From: Streptomyces barringtoniae
GTDB lineage: Bacteria; Actinomycetota; Actinomycetes; Streptomycetales; Streptomycetaceae
NCBI RefSeq assembly: GCF_020819595.1
Contig: NZ_JAJHNP010000004.1
Coordinates: 372,001 to 436,000, forward strand
Direction of reading: 5' to 3'
Length of the DNA stretch: 64,000 nucleotides
The notes beneath the pieces are model-generated. The model was not told the DNA's origin, searched no databases, and was given only the letters and a program-made list of their open reading frames with translations. A program made the position numbers and the translations under genes. This document shows, one piece after another, positions 9,377 to 57,000 of the stretch (its first letter is position 1; the number at the start of each line of letters is the position of its first letter).

Positions 9377-9562
9377 CCCTGGCCAAGGCCGCCCGGCATT
9401 GTGCAGAATGCCCGTGCCGCAGGTCACAGCGCTCCCGAGAGGCGAGACACGTGCCCCATCGGAGGAGTGCGACCGATAAACTGTTCACGGTCGACGCCGG
9501 GCGCAGCCCCGCGCGTCGCCGCAAATGATCAGCCAGCAGCCGCTGCAACCACAGGGAGCGTT

Positions 9563-49117: not shown

Positions 49118-49264
49118 AAAGGTCAAAGCGCGCTGGACGTACAGCAGTTGCGCGGACCCGCCGGGCCGCGCAAGCCCGGCGACACGTGCTGTGAGGGAGC
49201 CCACACCCTCCGTCTGTCTGGAGCGCCGCCCGGCGTGGCACACTGGCCGTGTACCAGAAGCAGC

Positions 49265-49387
49265 GCACTCCGGGGTCGGTGAAAGTCCGAACCGGCGGTT
49301 ACAGTCCGCGACCCGGTCGCTTCCAGCGGCCGGTTGACCAGGTGAAATTCCTGGACCGACGGTTAAAGTCCGGATGGGAGGCAGTGC
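49265..49387 (+). ncRNA. FMN riboswitch (RFN element)
   Basis: All conserved RFN blocks are in order: GCACTCCGGGGTCGGTGAAA at the 5' end, then GTCCGAACCGGCGGT, ACAGTCCGCGACCC, CCGGTTGACCAGGTGAAATTCC, and the closing GACGGTTAAAGTCCGGATGG with GGAGGCAGTGC. It binds FMN and should repress ribE-ribM-ribBA-ribH when FMN is plentiful. A 160-nt spacer separates it from ribE. Confidence 0.95.
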
Positions 49388-49547
49388 GCGGCGGGCGGGC
49401 ACACTCACCTGTGCGCGTCGCCGTATCTGGGCTTGTCCGTACGCGGACGAGCCTCTTTCGGCGTCGCCCTGGCGTGCTCACCCGTACATTCTGTCGTCAT
49501 CGACAGGCCCCGGAGTCCGTGCCCCAAGAGGCAGGAGGACCCGGGAA

Positions 49548-53862: not shown

Positions 53863-54327
53863 ATGTCCGACACCCCTTCCCTTCCCGCGCTTCCCGTCAC
53901 CTTCCGGCCGGGCCACACCCGTGTGATCCTGCTCACCGCCGGTGTCGCGATCTTCCTGACCATCTCCGGGGTCGCGATGCTGCTGGAGCAGCTCGGCCCG
54001 GGGGAGCGGGCGAGCTTCGTCGTCACCGGCGCGCTGATCTTCTGGGCGCTGGCCCAGCTGGCCCGGGTGAAGGTCGTCGCCGACGAGTCCGGTGTCACCG
54101 TGGTCAACATCGCCGGCAAGCGGCACCTGGAGTGGGCGGAGATCGTCCAGGTGAACCTCCGTCCGGGGGATCCCTGGGTGTTCCTCAACCTCAGCGACGG
54201 CACCAGCCTGCCCGCGCTCGGCATCCAGCCGGGCCTCGCCAAGCAGCGCGCCATCGCCGACGCGCAGGCCCTGCGCGCCCTCGTCGAAGCCCGTTCCCCG
54301 GCCCACCCGGTCGAGGATCAGGGCTGA
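53863..54327 (+). CDS. PH-domain-like membrane protein
   Basis: This 154-residue protein has two hydrophobic segments (VILLTAGVAIFLTISGVAMLL and FVVTGALIFWALAQLA) followed by a bacterial PH-like domain (VVADESGVTVVNIAGKRHLEWAEI, split). Its function is not known. ATG 53863 is preferred over GTG 53851 because AGGGG lies ten bases upstream. It follows hisG by 15 bases, as in other Streptomyces. Confidence 0.8.
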   Translation: MSDTPSLPALPVTFRPGHTRVILLTAGVAIFLTISGVAMLLEQLGPGERASFVVTGALIFWALAQLARVKVVADESGVTVVNIAGKRHLEWAEIVQVNLRPGDPWVFLNLSDGTSLPALGIQPGLAKQRAIADAQALRALVEARSPAHPVEDQG

Positions 54328-54401
54328 CCCGGGGCACATCGGGACCGGCTCGGGCCGGATCAGGGCCGGCTCGGGGGCAGATCCGGGCTGACTCGGGGCC
54401 G
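54317..54401 (+). repeat. 21-22 bp tandem repeat across the stop codon of the PH-like gene
   Basis: Four imperfect units start at 54317, 54338, 54359 and 54381, each of the form ATC(A/G/C)GGGC-GGCTCGGGG. The first unit encodes the last codons and the stop. Confidence 0.7.
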
Positions 54402-54444
54402 CCGACTCTGCCCGACCGGCCCGTGTCTTGATTAATCTGGTGAC

Positions 54445-54550
54445 GGAGGCCGTTTTGCTGCGCCTCCACCCCTGGGGCACCACCCGGTGCACAGGGGTTC
54501 CTGCTACCCGAGGAGTGACTCCCTCCAGCGATGGACGGATCGTCCTGTAG
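54445..54550 (+). ncRNA. Structured leader RNA, candidate metal-ion riboswitch (M-box-like)
   Basis: Three compact elements precede the CNNM genes: GGAGGC (54445-54450) pairs with GCCTCC (54462-54467); ACCCCTG (54468-54474) with CAGGGGT (54492-54498), enclosing GCACC/GGTGC; and CTAC (54504-54507) with GTAG (54547-54550), enclosing hairpins GGAG-TGA-CTCC and GGAC/GTCC. GGTGACGGAGG and CTGCTACCC recall the M-box (ykoK) magnesium riboswitch, and the downstream genes encode divalent-metal proteins. The class is not certain. Confidence 0.5.
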
Positions 54551-54595
54551 TACCTGCGCCGCCCCGACCCGACATACCGGGAAGGCGGTGGCAGC

Positions 54596-55930
54596 GTGAC
54601 CATCTCCCTGCTGCTCCTGGGAGCGGCTTTCCTGCTGATCCTCGCCAACGGATTCTTCGTGGCGGCCGAGTTCGGCCTGGTGACCGTCGAGGCCACGGAC
54701 GCCGAGAAGGCGGCCGCCGAGGGCGACCGCCGGGCCGGCAGAGTGGCCGAGTCGCTCAAGGAGCTGTCCTTCCAGCTCTCCGGCACCCAGCTCGGCATCA
54801 CCATCACCTCCCTGGTCGTCGGCATGCTCGCCGAACCGGCCCTGGCCCGCCTGCTGCACGGCCCCTTCGCCGCCATCGGCGTCCCCGACGGCGCCGTCTC
54901 CGGCGTCGCCGTGGTCGTCGGCATGCTGCTGGCCTCCGCGATCCAGATGGTGATCGGCGAGCTCGTGCCCAAGAACTGGGCCGTGTCCAAGCCGCTGCCG
55001 GTCGCCCGGTTCGTGGCCGGCCCCCAGTACCACTTCGCCCGCCTGTTCCGCCCGGTGATCGCCGCGCTCAACACGGTCGCCAACCGGCTGGTGCGGGCCC
55101 TCGGCGTCGAACCCGCCGAGGAACTGGCCTCCGCCCGCACCCCGGGCGAACTCGTCTCCCTGGCCCGGCACTCCGCGCAGGCAGGCGCCCTGGAACAGGA
55201 CACGGCCGACCTGTTCGTCCGCACCCTGTCCCTGGGCGAGCTGACCGCGCAGCACGTCATGACCCCGCGGGTGAAGGTCAGCGCCCTCCAGGACTCGGCT
55301 ACCGCCGAGGACGTCGTCAACCTCACCCGGGCCACCGGCCTGTCCCGCTTCCCCGTCTACCGGGAGAAGATCGACGAGATCGTGGGCATGGCCCACCTGA
55401 AGGACGCCCTCGCCGTCCCCGTGCACGACCGCCTGCGCACCCCGGTGACCCGTATCGCCCGCAAGGCGCTGCTGGTGCCGGAGACCCTGCCGGTCCAGCC
55501 CCTGCTCGCCCGGCTCCGCTCCGAGCAGCCCATCGCGGTCGTCGTGGACGAGTACGGCGGCACGGCGGGCGTGGTCACCCTGGAGGACATCGTCGAGGAA
55601 CTCGTCGGCGAGGTCCGCGACGAGCACGACGCCACGGACATGCCCGAGCTGGCCCCGGCCCCGCCGGAGGACGGCCGGCCCGCCTGGGACGCCGACGGCA
55701 GCTGCCGCGTCGACATCCTCCAGCGCATAGGCCTCGACGTGCCCGAGGGACCGTACGAGACGGTCGCCGGACTCGTCGCCGACCTGCTCGGCCGCATCCC
55801 CGCCCCCGGCGACAAGGCGGAACTGCCCGGCTGGCGGCTCTCGGTCCGCCAGGTCGGCCACTACCGCGCCGAACGGGTCCGCCTGGTCAGGACGGCCCCG
55901 GCGGCGAACGTGATGGAGGCCGCCCGATGA
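54596..55930 (+). CDS. CNNM/CorC-type (hemolysin-like) membrane protein with CBS pair, copy 1
   Basis: The 444-residue protein has an N-terminal DUF21/CNNM membrane domain (LLILANGFFVAAEFGLV, GTQLGITITSLVVGMLAEP, VIGELVPKNWA), then two CBS domains (VMTPRVKVSAL through VDEYGGTAGVVTLEDIVEELVGEV) and a C-terminal CorC_HlyC domain. Such proteins export magnesium or cobalt. GTG 54596 has GGGAAGG ten bases upstream. It shares an ATGA overlap with the paralogue that follows. Confidence 0.9.
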   Translation: MTISLLLLGAAFLLILANGFFVAAEFGLVTVEATDAEKAAAEGDRRAGRVAESLKELSFQLSGTQLGITITSLVVGMLAEPALARLLHGPFAAIGVPDGAVSGVAVVVGMLLASAIQMVIGELVPKNWAVSKPLPVARFVAGPQYHFARLFRPVIAALNTVANRLVRALGVEPAEELASARTPGELVSLARHSAQAGALEQDTADLFVRTLSLGELTAQHVMTPRVKVSALQDSATAEDVVNLTRATGLSRFPVYREKIDEIVGMAHLKDALAVPVHDRLRTPVTRIARKALLVPETLPVQPLLARLRSEQPIAVVVDEYGGTAGVVTLEDIVEELVGEVRDEHDATDMPELAPAPPEDGRPAWDADGSCRVDILQRIGLDVPEGPYETVAGLVADLLGRIPAPGDKAELPGWRLSVRQVGHYRAERVRLVRTAPAANVMEAAR

Positions 55931-57000
55931 GCGTCCTCCAACTGGTCTTCGCCGCGCTGCTCGTGCTCGCCAACGGCTTCTTCGTCGGCGCCGAGTTCGC
56001 GCTCGTCTCCGTGCGCCGCAGCCAGATCGAACCACTGGGCACGGCGCGGGCCCGCCAGGTCCTCTACGGTCTTCAGCGCCTGCCCCAGATGATGGCCGCG
56101 GCCCAGTTCGGGATCACGGTCTGCTCGCTGACGCTGGGCGCGGTGGCCGAGCCGACGGTGGCGCATCTGCTGGAGCCGGTGTTCGCGGCCGCCCACCTGC
56201 CCGACGGCATGGTCCACCCGCTCGGCTATGTGATCGCGCTGGCCGCCGTGGTCTTCTTCCACCTGGTCATCGGCGAGATGGTGCCGAAGAACCTCGCGAT
56301 GGCGGCCCCCGAGAAGGCGGCGCTGTGGCTGAGCCCCGGCCTGGTCTGGTTCGCCCGCCTGTGCAAGCCGATCACGGTGAGCCTCGGCGCCTGCGCCCAG
56401 GCCATCCTGCGGCTCTTCCGCGTCGAGCCCAAGGACGAGGTCGAGGCCGTCGTCACCAGCGAGCAGCTCAACCGCCTGCTGGAGGACTCCGGCCAGGCGG
56501 GCCTGCTCGACCCCGAGGAGCGCGAACGCCTGGAGGACGCCCTGGAGCTTGGCTCCCGCCCGGTGACCGACGTCCTGCTGCGCCGGGAGTCCCTGGTCAC
56601 GGTGGCCCCGTCGGTCACCCCGGGCCAGATCGTCGAGCTGACGGCCCGCACGGGGTACTCCCGCTTCCCGGTCGCCGCGTCGGACAAGGGCCCCTTCATG
56701 GGGTACGTCCACGTCAAGGACGTCCTCGACCTGGAGCACTCCGGCCGTGCCGTCCCGCAAAAGGTCTGGCGGCCCATGACCACCCTGCGGGCCGAGCTGC
56801 CGCTCGACGACGCCCTCACGGTCATGCGGCGGGCGGCCACGCACTTGGCCCAGGTCGCGGACGCCTCCGGCAAGGTGCTGGGCCTGGTGGCCCTGGAGGA
56901 CGTCCTGGAGCTGCTGGTGGGCGAGGTACGGGACCCGGCGCACCGGGAGATGCCGGAGCCGCGGGCCAGCGGGGAGCCGGAGCAGGTGCTCGCCTCCTAG
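55927..57000 (+). CDS. CNNM/CorC-type membrane protein with CBS pair, copy 2
   Basis: This 357-residue paralogue has the same DUF21 membrane domain (LLVLANGFFVGAEFALVSVRRSQ, VIGEMVPKNLAMAAPEKA) and CBS pair, but lacks the C-terminal CorC_HlyC domain of copy 1. In place of VDEYGG it has ASGKVLGLVALEDVLELLVGEV. The start overlaps the stop of copy 1. The two may form a heterodimeric metal transporter; that is inference. Confidence 0.9.
   Translation: MSVLQLVFAALLVLANGFFVGAEFALVSVRRSQIEPLGTARARQVLYGLQRLPQMMAAAQFGITVCSLTLGAVAEPTVAHLLEPVFAAAHLPDGMVHPLGYVIALAAVVFFHLVIGEMVPKNLAMAAPEKAALWLSPGLVWFARLCKPITVSLGACAQAILRLFRVEPKDEVEAVVTSEQLNRLLEDSGQAGLLDPEERERLEDALELGSRPVTDVLLRRESLVTVAPSVTPGQIVELTARTGYSRFPVAASDKGPFMGYVHVKDVLDLEHSGRAVPQKVWRPMTTLRAELPLDDALTVMRRAATHLAQVADASGKVLGLVALEDVLELLVGEVRDPAHREMPEPRASGEPEQVLAS

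Follow-up and report, generated by a model that had tools for sequence, protein, structure and literature searches.

The leader considered here lies on the forward strand of a 64,000-nucleotide stretch of Streptomyces barringtoniae DNA (the window), in front of two CNNM-domain genes identified with Pfam (PF01595, E values of 3e-39 and 4.2e-43). The first gene (54596..55930, + strand) encodes PF01595, CBS, and CorC_HlyC domains, and the second (55927..57000, + strand), which overlaps the first, encodes PF01595 and two CBS stretches. Among solved structures, the top match was 7m1t/7m1u for the first protein and 7m1t for the second, and we take SCO1436/SCO1435 and Rv1842c/Rv1841c to be the likely orthologues of the pair. 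The first protein retains the GE..PK stretch (GE and PK of TM3). Its residues Asn18 and Val22 (codons within 54647-54661) align with Ser21 and Ser25 of MtCorB, both of which PMC8242095 includes among the Mg2+ ligands; according to the same source, ligand-site mutants of a related CorB showed raised rather than lowered transport. Because these two ligand positions differ, Mg2+ export by the window CNNM protein would be a family-based guess only.

On the 5' side, the leader is preceded by a small PH-domain gene that ends at 54327. Between this gene and the leader, positions 54340-54400 contain near-repeats of the GGCTCGGGCCGGATCAGGGCCGGCTCGGGG type, and a sub-threshold pRNA match (E value of 0.043) falls in this same stretch. 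Read by eye, TAATCT at 54433..54438 (+ strand) is a possible -10 element, which would place the transcription start near 54445, and TTAATCT or TTACTCT recurs at the -10 place in many rows of the leader alignment. A scan of 54300-54640 for a sigma-70 consensus promoter and for a terminator found neither.

The original prediction had read this leader as a metal-sensing riboswitch made of three consecutive stems, one of them a branched element closed by CTAC/GTAG, with short motifs recalling the M-box. The leader is strongly folded: positions 54440-54598 have a minimum free energy (MFE) of -80.5 kcal/mol (z score of -3.45), and none of 200 shuffled sequences was as stable. The three stems are present in the MFE fold, at about 54445-54467, 54468-54498, and 54502-54552, together with a fourth (about 54555-54596) that had gone unmentioned and that reaches the CNNM start. 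The first two are consecutive G+C-rich hairpins of the 5' leader (54445..54498, + strand); 5' hairpins of varying sequence were seen by eye in the single folds of 18 leaders and are missing from the RNAalifold consensus. The third (54502..54552, + strand), proposed to be branched, folds as an irregular hairpin without a clear branched junction, which covers the conserved core and encloses both a Shine-Dalgarno (SD)-like GAGGAG and the start of a short leader ORF (uORF). Moreover, the CTAC half of the supposed closing helix is not conserved, as the window T at position -26 from the uORF start codon (uATG) is a G in 26 of 66 Streptomyces leaders aligned column by column and free of gaps. Regarding covariation of the stems, 0 of the 12 RNAalifold consensus pairs changed on both sides (covariation term of -0.08) in a set of 42 of the 67 Streptomyces leaders. 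Sequence in the core, between about -21 and +32 of the uORF, hardly differs among these leaders, so that missing covariation is weak evidence there; its absence lends the riboswitch reading no support.

At the Rfam gathering score, the whole window yielded only an FMN riboswitch (49261-49391, + strand) and a Streptomyces-metK RNA (9442-9558, + strand), neither of them in the leader, and 20 related loci yielded nothing. A permissive Infernal cmscan of 54200-54800 up to an E value of 10 returned only pRNA and three miRNA models, all below the gathering score, with neither RF00380 nor any other metal riboswitch. As the scans of the window leader and of the 20 related loci are empty of metal families, the resemblance to the M-box is unsupported. 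Direct control of CNNM expression by a metal riboswitch, whether from a described class (M-box, NiCo, yybP-ykoY) or diverged, could accommodate the strong fold, the location before CNNM genes, and the very high conservation of the core nucleotides, synonymous sites included (0.919 at four-fold codons versus 0.695 in the CNNM gene), but we consider it very unlikely, given that no Rfam metal family appears in the leader even at an E value of ≤10 or in the related loci at the gathering score, that no pair covaries in 42 leaders (though the core varies little), and that, by eye, the uORFs of other families come without the RNA core of Streptomyces. Thus, what stands of the original prediction is a likely conserved cis-regulatory leader of the CNNM pair, whereas metal sensing by a riboswitch is not supported. 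Instead, a reading frame and a stem sequestering the RBS give the strongest signals, in line with control by a leader peptide.

The uORF itself (54531..54599, + strand) comprises 22 codons (MDGSSCSTCAAPTRHTGKAVAA), and its TGA stop (54597-54599) overlaps the GTG start of the first CNNM gene (54596-54598) in the sequence GTGA. In each of the 67 Streptomyces leaders compared, the frame opened by the homologous uATG terminates precisely at the CNNM start, in an NTGA; these leaders are the window and L002-L067, the Streptomyces among the best 80 of 578 loci (some counts refer to 66 leaders because a filter demanding two adjacent alanines loses L063). All 67 leaders therefore have the in-frame short ORF with its stop on the main-gene start that characterizes a translationally coupled leader ORF. 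The linker is variable, with 11 different uORF lengths (18, 19, 20, 21, 22, 23, 25, 27, 29, 30, and 32 codons); by a hand estimate, the chance that all of these length changes, ten or more, stay in frame without any constraint on the frame is 3^-10 (~2e-5). Comparison between species thus establishes the uORF frame and its exact stop/start overlap. The 171-nt leader has a single match in the window's own genome, and the 67-nt core was matched, once per genome, in 185 of the 199 genomes from the genus (E value of ≤0.001).

The SD-like element nearest to the uORF, GAGGAG (54510..54515, + strand), lies 15 to 16 nt before the uATG, and the sequence at this site, GAGGAGTGA, has a pairwise identity of 0.888 in the 67 leaders. 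This element is too distant from the uATG for a normal start, which counts against the coupled-uORF reading set out below. An 11-codon frame over the core (GTG ACT..CTG TAG, 54515-54550) was rejected on account of L053-type leaders, which by eye carry one extra base. No slippery sequence for frameshifting between the uORF and CNNM was found by eye.

Within the uORF, a 5' arm GCCGCC (54558..54563, + strand; codons 10-11) pairs with a purine-rich 3' arm GGUGGC (54587..54592, + strand) that lies within the CNNM ribosome-binding region. Single-sequence folds join uORF codons 10-12 to the 20 nt before the CNNM start by at least 5 pairs in 67 of 67 leaders, these pairs being taken from each sequence's own fold, a procedure that favors pairing. 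Second pair types with both sides changed occur at +30 to +35: G-C in 63 leaders, A-T in 2, and G-T in 2 (the window among the latter) at +30; C-G in 65, T-A in 1, and unpaired in 1 at +31; C-G in 65 and G-C in 2 at +32; and C-G in 45 and T-A in 10 at +35. Compensated variants of the arms are carried by L042 (GCCGCG/CGCGGC), L063 (GCCGTG/CACGGC), and L003/L006 (GCCACC/GGTGGC). All 59 distinct arm pairs formed a weaker duplex once the 3' arm was shuffled (mean of -23.2 versus -13.8 kcal/mol). Swapping the 3' arm between species gave a mean of -22.3 against -23.2 for a leader's own arm, which was better in 40 of 59 cases, a small effect because the arms are alike between species. A sequestering stem with compensated variants is thus found by comparison in all 67 folds, the arm-swap test of it being weak.

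Altogether, we propose as the best explanation that the leader carries a uORF whose stop overlaps the CNNM start and which is translationally coupled to CNNM, a reading to which we assign a probability of roughly 75%. The CNNM ribosome-binding region would be locked into the stem with uORF codons 10-12. Translation of the uORF would melt this stem, and ribosomes terminating at the GTGA/ATGA would pass on to the CNNM start, resulting in translational coupling. We find it quite probable that the uORF is translated and coupled; CNNM expression would then need this coupling, and the first CNNM gene is probably controlled through translation of the tiny leader peptide. Candidate controls of uORF translation would be Mg2+, the stability or stalling of ribosomes on the Asp/Ser-rich early part of the peptide, or an RNA fold around the start. 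That the coupling serves regulation, and not constant boosting, is about an even call, and Mg2+ or another divalent metal as the signal is a tentative suggestion.

The same coupling minus regulation would be a constitutive booster, in which the uORF aids initiation on the structured, weak CNNM RBS by reinitiation, without any sensing. Such a booster is consistent with the RBS stem and the stop/start overlap, and leader genes near starts, frequent in Actinobacteria, have been proposed to be reinitiation boosters (PMC4833913). Nevertheless, it would need neither a nearly invariant core nor a recurrent acidic-Ser peptide start, nor would it need the rare Ser codon that is fixed at codon 7 (AGT, 66 of 66 leaders), and we hold it to be plausible at clearly less than even odds.

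Conservation within the uORF points to constraint at the RNA level. In the 67 Streptomyces leaders, pairwise identity is 0.928 at the third positions of uORF codons 2-11 and 0.919 at their four-fold codons, versus 0.695 at comparable CNNM-gene sites. Synonymous and other sites of the uORF core are conserved to about the same degree, codons 6 and 9 vary non-synonymously, and amino acid selection on the uORF peptide is not clear from these comparisons. Since its synonymous sites exceed those of CNNM (0.92 versus 0.70), the core is constrained beyond its peptide, and we infer that the RNA, the start-site fold, or the codons of the uORF must matter as well. As for the codons, Ser7 is encoded by AGT in all of the 66 leaders, AGT making up 3.1% of the Ser codons in 218 genes of the window's genome. 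A general rare-codon idea was rejected, the overall enrichment of AGT plus TCT being weak (27% of Ser codons in CNNM uORFs versus 20% in control uORFs); the fixed AGT position alone stands out.

This RNA-level constraint keeps alive a composite reading, compatible with the coupled uORF, in which a conserved RNA fold (-21 to +32) would control initiation of the uORF, perhaps via a ligand or a protein, while the uORF couples to CNNM. The constraint at synonymous sites of the core fits such a fold, and GAGGAG and the uATG do lie inside the predicted irregular hairpin; however, no covariation backs the start-site fold and there is no candidate ligand. Moreover, uORFs elsewhere depart from it, those of f17 type 1 and f18 having an ordinary purine-rich SD and other-family uORFs starting, by eye, close to a -10-like hexamer. 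We therefore regard the composite as possible but doubtful.

Judged from their sequences, CNNM genes of other actinobacterial families are patchily preceded by look-alike uORFs, most of which have an acidic residue early on and Ser-Ser/Thr. Loci of other genera were oriented and then read by eye and by script, and a locus was counted when it had a uORF that fitted its group pattern and stopped between -14 and +11 nt from a possible CNNM start. The grouping and the patterns were defined after inspection, and the fractions given here express coherence, not prevalence. All 24 Streptosporangiaceae-type loci, which are close orthologues (24 of the 61 genomes of that family matched at an E value of ≤1e-120), have a GTG uORF with a purine-rich GAAAGGA-like SD. 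These uORFs encode VSxPDPWSTxPCxxTG-like peptides, count 22 to 35 codons, and end on the CNNM start, with NTGA in 22 loci and TGATG in 2. In the weaker f17 matches outside these 24 (L135-L139), an overlapping uORF is present and the PDPWST-type peptide absent; f17 is called Streptosporangiaceae by inference, L081 (Microbispora) matching G016 at 86%. A fitting uORF was likewise found in 9 of 9 loci of the MKSSDDAGCSSGRP type, in 11 of 11 of the TDASSR type (10 NTGA and 1 TGATG), in 5 of 5 of the MDPSRST type (with DEPPS or similar further along), and in 10 of 10 of a hand-picked set with MDDPPS and relatives. The motif and stop-position test was passed in 18 of 56 loci of family f4 (EGSSTEPG type), presumably Mycobacteriaceae. 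Among the 29 loci of family f26, 6 had no overlapping uORF and in 13 no overlapping uORF had [DE]P or P[DE]. The f18 genomes also have further CNNM loci that lack the uORF type of their group, three of which (L110, L199, and L208) are without any overlapping uORF. Paralogues of the CNNM gene within Streptomyces (L251-L256, from the window's genome and five genus mates) carry an MGEPP-type uORF in 6 of 6 cases, all ending with NTGA. A predicted stem covers the RBS and start in the paralogue leaders L253 and L255. By eye, the uORF ATG lies within ~10 nt of a -10-like hexamer in L077, L078, L097, L102, L076, L209, L217, and L221, the transcripts of which may be leaderless or nearly so.

Hairpins accompany several of these uORFs. 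In 23 of the 24 Streptosporangiaceae-type rows (L114-L134, L081, L234, and L236), a CCCGTGC-N4-GCACGGG hairpin begins two bases after AGTACC (or after a variant of it, in L128, L133, and L134), and L119, which escaped this pattern, has the hairpin by eye. In f4, TCTACC/AGTACC or a variant precedes GCCGGG...CCCGGC or a near form in 31 of 53 rows (L140-L167 and others, with L100 and L140 being the same locus and L271 uncertain), two of these hairpin rows carrying GCCGGC...GCCGGC. By eye, 17 nt separate an acidic codon from the base of the hairpin downstream in the Streptosporangiaceae-type loci, in f4, in L078, and in the paralogue L255. Given the ribosome footprint, a ribosome would meet the hairpin at about that point when the acidic codon is in its P site, and pausing at the hairpin after the Ser-Thr codons would be speculation.

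A class-wide search gave a CNNM match in at least 143 of 148 genomes. Outside the 67 Streptomyces leaders, a uORF of 8 to 70 codons overlaps a possible CNNM start in 152 of 199 loci, a few of which are the same locus counted twice, compared with 130 of 389 for control genes taken from the window's genome, to which a similar lenient rule was applied (uORFs up to 60 codons; start candidates sought over 150 nt for CNNM and 90 nt for controls). As chance overlapping uORFs are common in a GC-rich genome, single cases outside the dense groups prove little. Peptide motifs set the CNNM loci further apart when the longest overlapping uORF of up to 50 codons was compared, with [DE].{0,4}S[ST] in 71 of 144 CNNM loci versus 8 of 99 control uORFs, [DE]P in 74 versus 15, S[ST] in 86 versus 28, and two acidic residues adjacent or one apart in 54 versus 21, for loci that are related and not independent, patterns devised after looking, and a control of one genome. 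Within the first 14 residues, [DE]PP?[ST] occurred in 3 of 389 controls and [DE]P or P[DE] in 24 of 389.

One of the closest known systems is MgtL, likewise a short leader ORF before a Mg2+ transport gene (mgtA), with a stop that, we assume, does not overlap mgtA; many actinobacterial uORFs resemble it in having acidic or proline residues directly after the start. At low Mg2+, ribosomes drop off the EPDP motif of MgtL, which acts on Rho-dependent transcription termination before the importer gene mgtA (PMC11282234), a mode of action different from the one proposed here. The window peptide also differs, since MDGSSCST contains only Asp2 and lacks the MgtL-type acidic pair plus proline near the N terminus; that combination is met in some other families (MDDPPSS and DEPPS). 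For mgpA (yoaE), which encodes a CorC-domain protein of Salmonella and E. coli, PMC12421838 describes that MgpA is translated less when the start codon of YoaL is replaced, and that high Mg2+ induces mgpA if the pH is neutral or alkaline; it further describes a destabilizing N terminus for CorC and a rise of both corC and mgpA at high Mg2+. Going by its published description, YoaL is akin to the window uORF in being a leader peptide ORF that overlaps sequence upstream of a transport gene with a CorC domain, but it belongs to another phylum and the membrane domain of MgpA is TerC instead of CNNM; its Mg2+ response is left open in what PMC12421838 says of it. In MgtQ, early acidic codons of a short ORF (8 codons within a 219-nt intergenic region) govern the Mg2+ transport gene mgtB through a stem holding its RBS (PMC8092293); poor mgtQ translation favors mgtB, whereas the geometry in the window predicts that uORF translation favors CNNM. 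The M-box (RF00380), including the Mycobacterium pe20 M-box controlling a uORF, is also a metal-gene leader of Actinobacteria in which a uORF is involved (PMC12810186), but the window leader has no M-box covariance match and the Mycobacterium work, as presented in that source, concerns other genes.

Compatible with the coupled uORF, a sensor of Mg2+ or ribosome state could act by nascent-chain ribosome destabilization, with the logic of MgtL and the opposite output. At low Mg2+, ribosomes would drop off at the acidic or proline-rich uORF start, coupling would fail, and CNNM would be off; at high Mg2+, CNNM would be made. Acidic-Pro-Ser starts in many families (MDDPPSS, MGEPPST, MEPPST, PDPWST, and DEPPS), the enrichment of acidic/Ser motifs over control uORFs, and the published parallels of MgtL (PMC11282234), CorC/YoaL (PMC12421838), and MgtQ (PMC8092293) argue for such a sensor. 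It is rather unlikely all the same, because the window peptide has one acidic residue, Asp2, whereas the motif given in PMC11282234 has two, adjacent or one apart; because L053, L055, and L058 (3 of 67 Streptomyces leaders) have no acidic residue; and because Mg2+ export by these CNNM proteins is putative, with two MtCorB ligands replaced (Asn18 and Val22). In its widest form, which we judge unlikely, fast-evolving leader peptides across Actinobacteria would report Mg2+ or ribosome stability via the nascent chain and switch CNNM on by stop/start coupling. Their layout would combine an acidic residue, Ser-Ser/Thr, and a stem at the mRNA entry of the ribosome, and together they would amount to a sensor of the MgtL kind that drives an exporter with the output inverted.

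A leader ORF coupled to a transport gene is a known principle, of which the CNNM uORFs would be a further form. No description of actinobacterial CNNM leader ORFs was found among the literature matches listed, and the tables of the survey of leader genes in Actinobacteria (PMC4833913) may list some CNNM uORFs. The case also warns against reading a riboswitch into a well-folded GC-rich leader whose conserved signal is largely a short ORF.

The CNNM/CorB family counts close to 90,000 sequences (PMC8242095), and the regulation of these proteins in bacteria is poorly known, the mechanisms regulating corC and mgpA being called unclear in PMC12421838. A leader ORF conserved in the large genus Streptomyces, with look-alikes elsewhere and before paralogues, offers a simple handle on CNNM control. 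If it is true that the acidic-Ser peptides sense Mg2+ or ribosome state, nascent-chain sensing would extend to Actinobacteria and to efflux.
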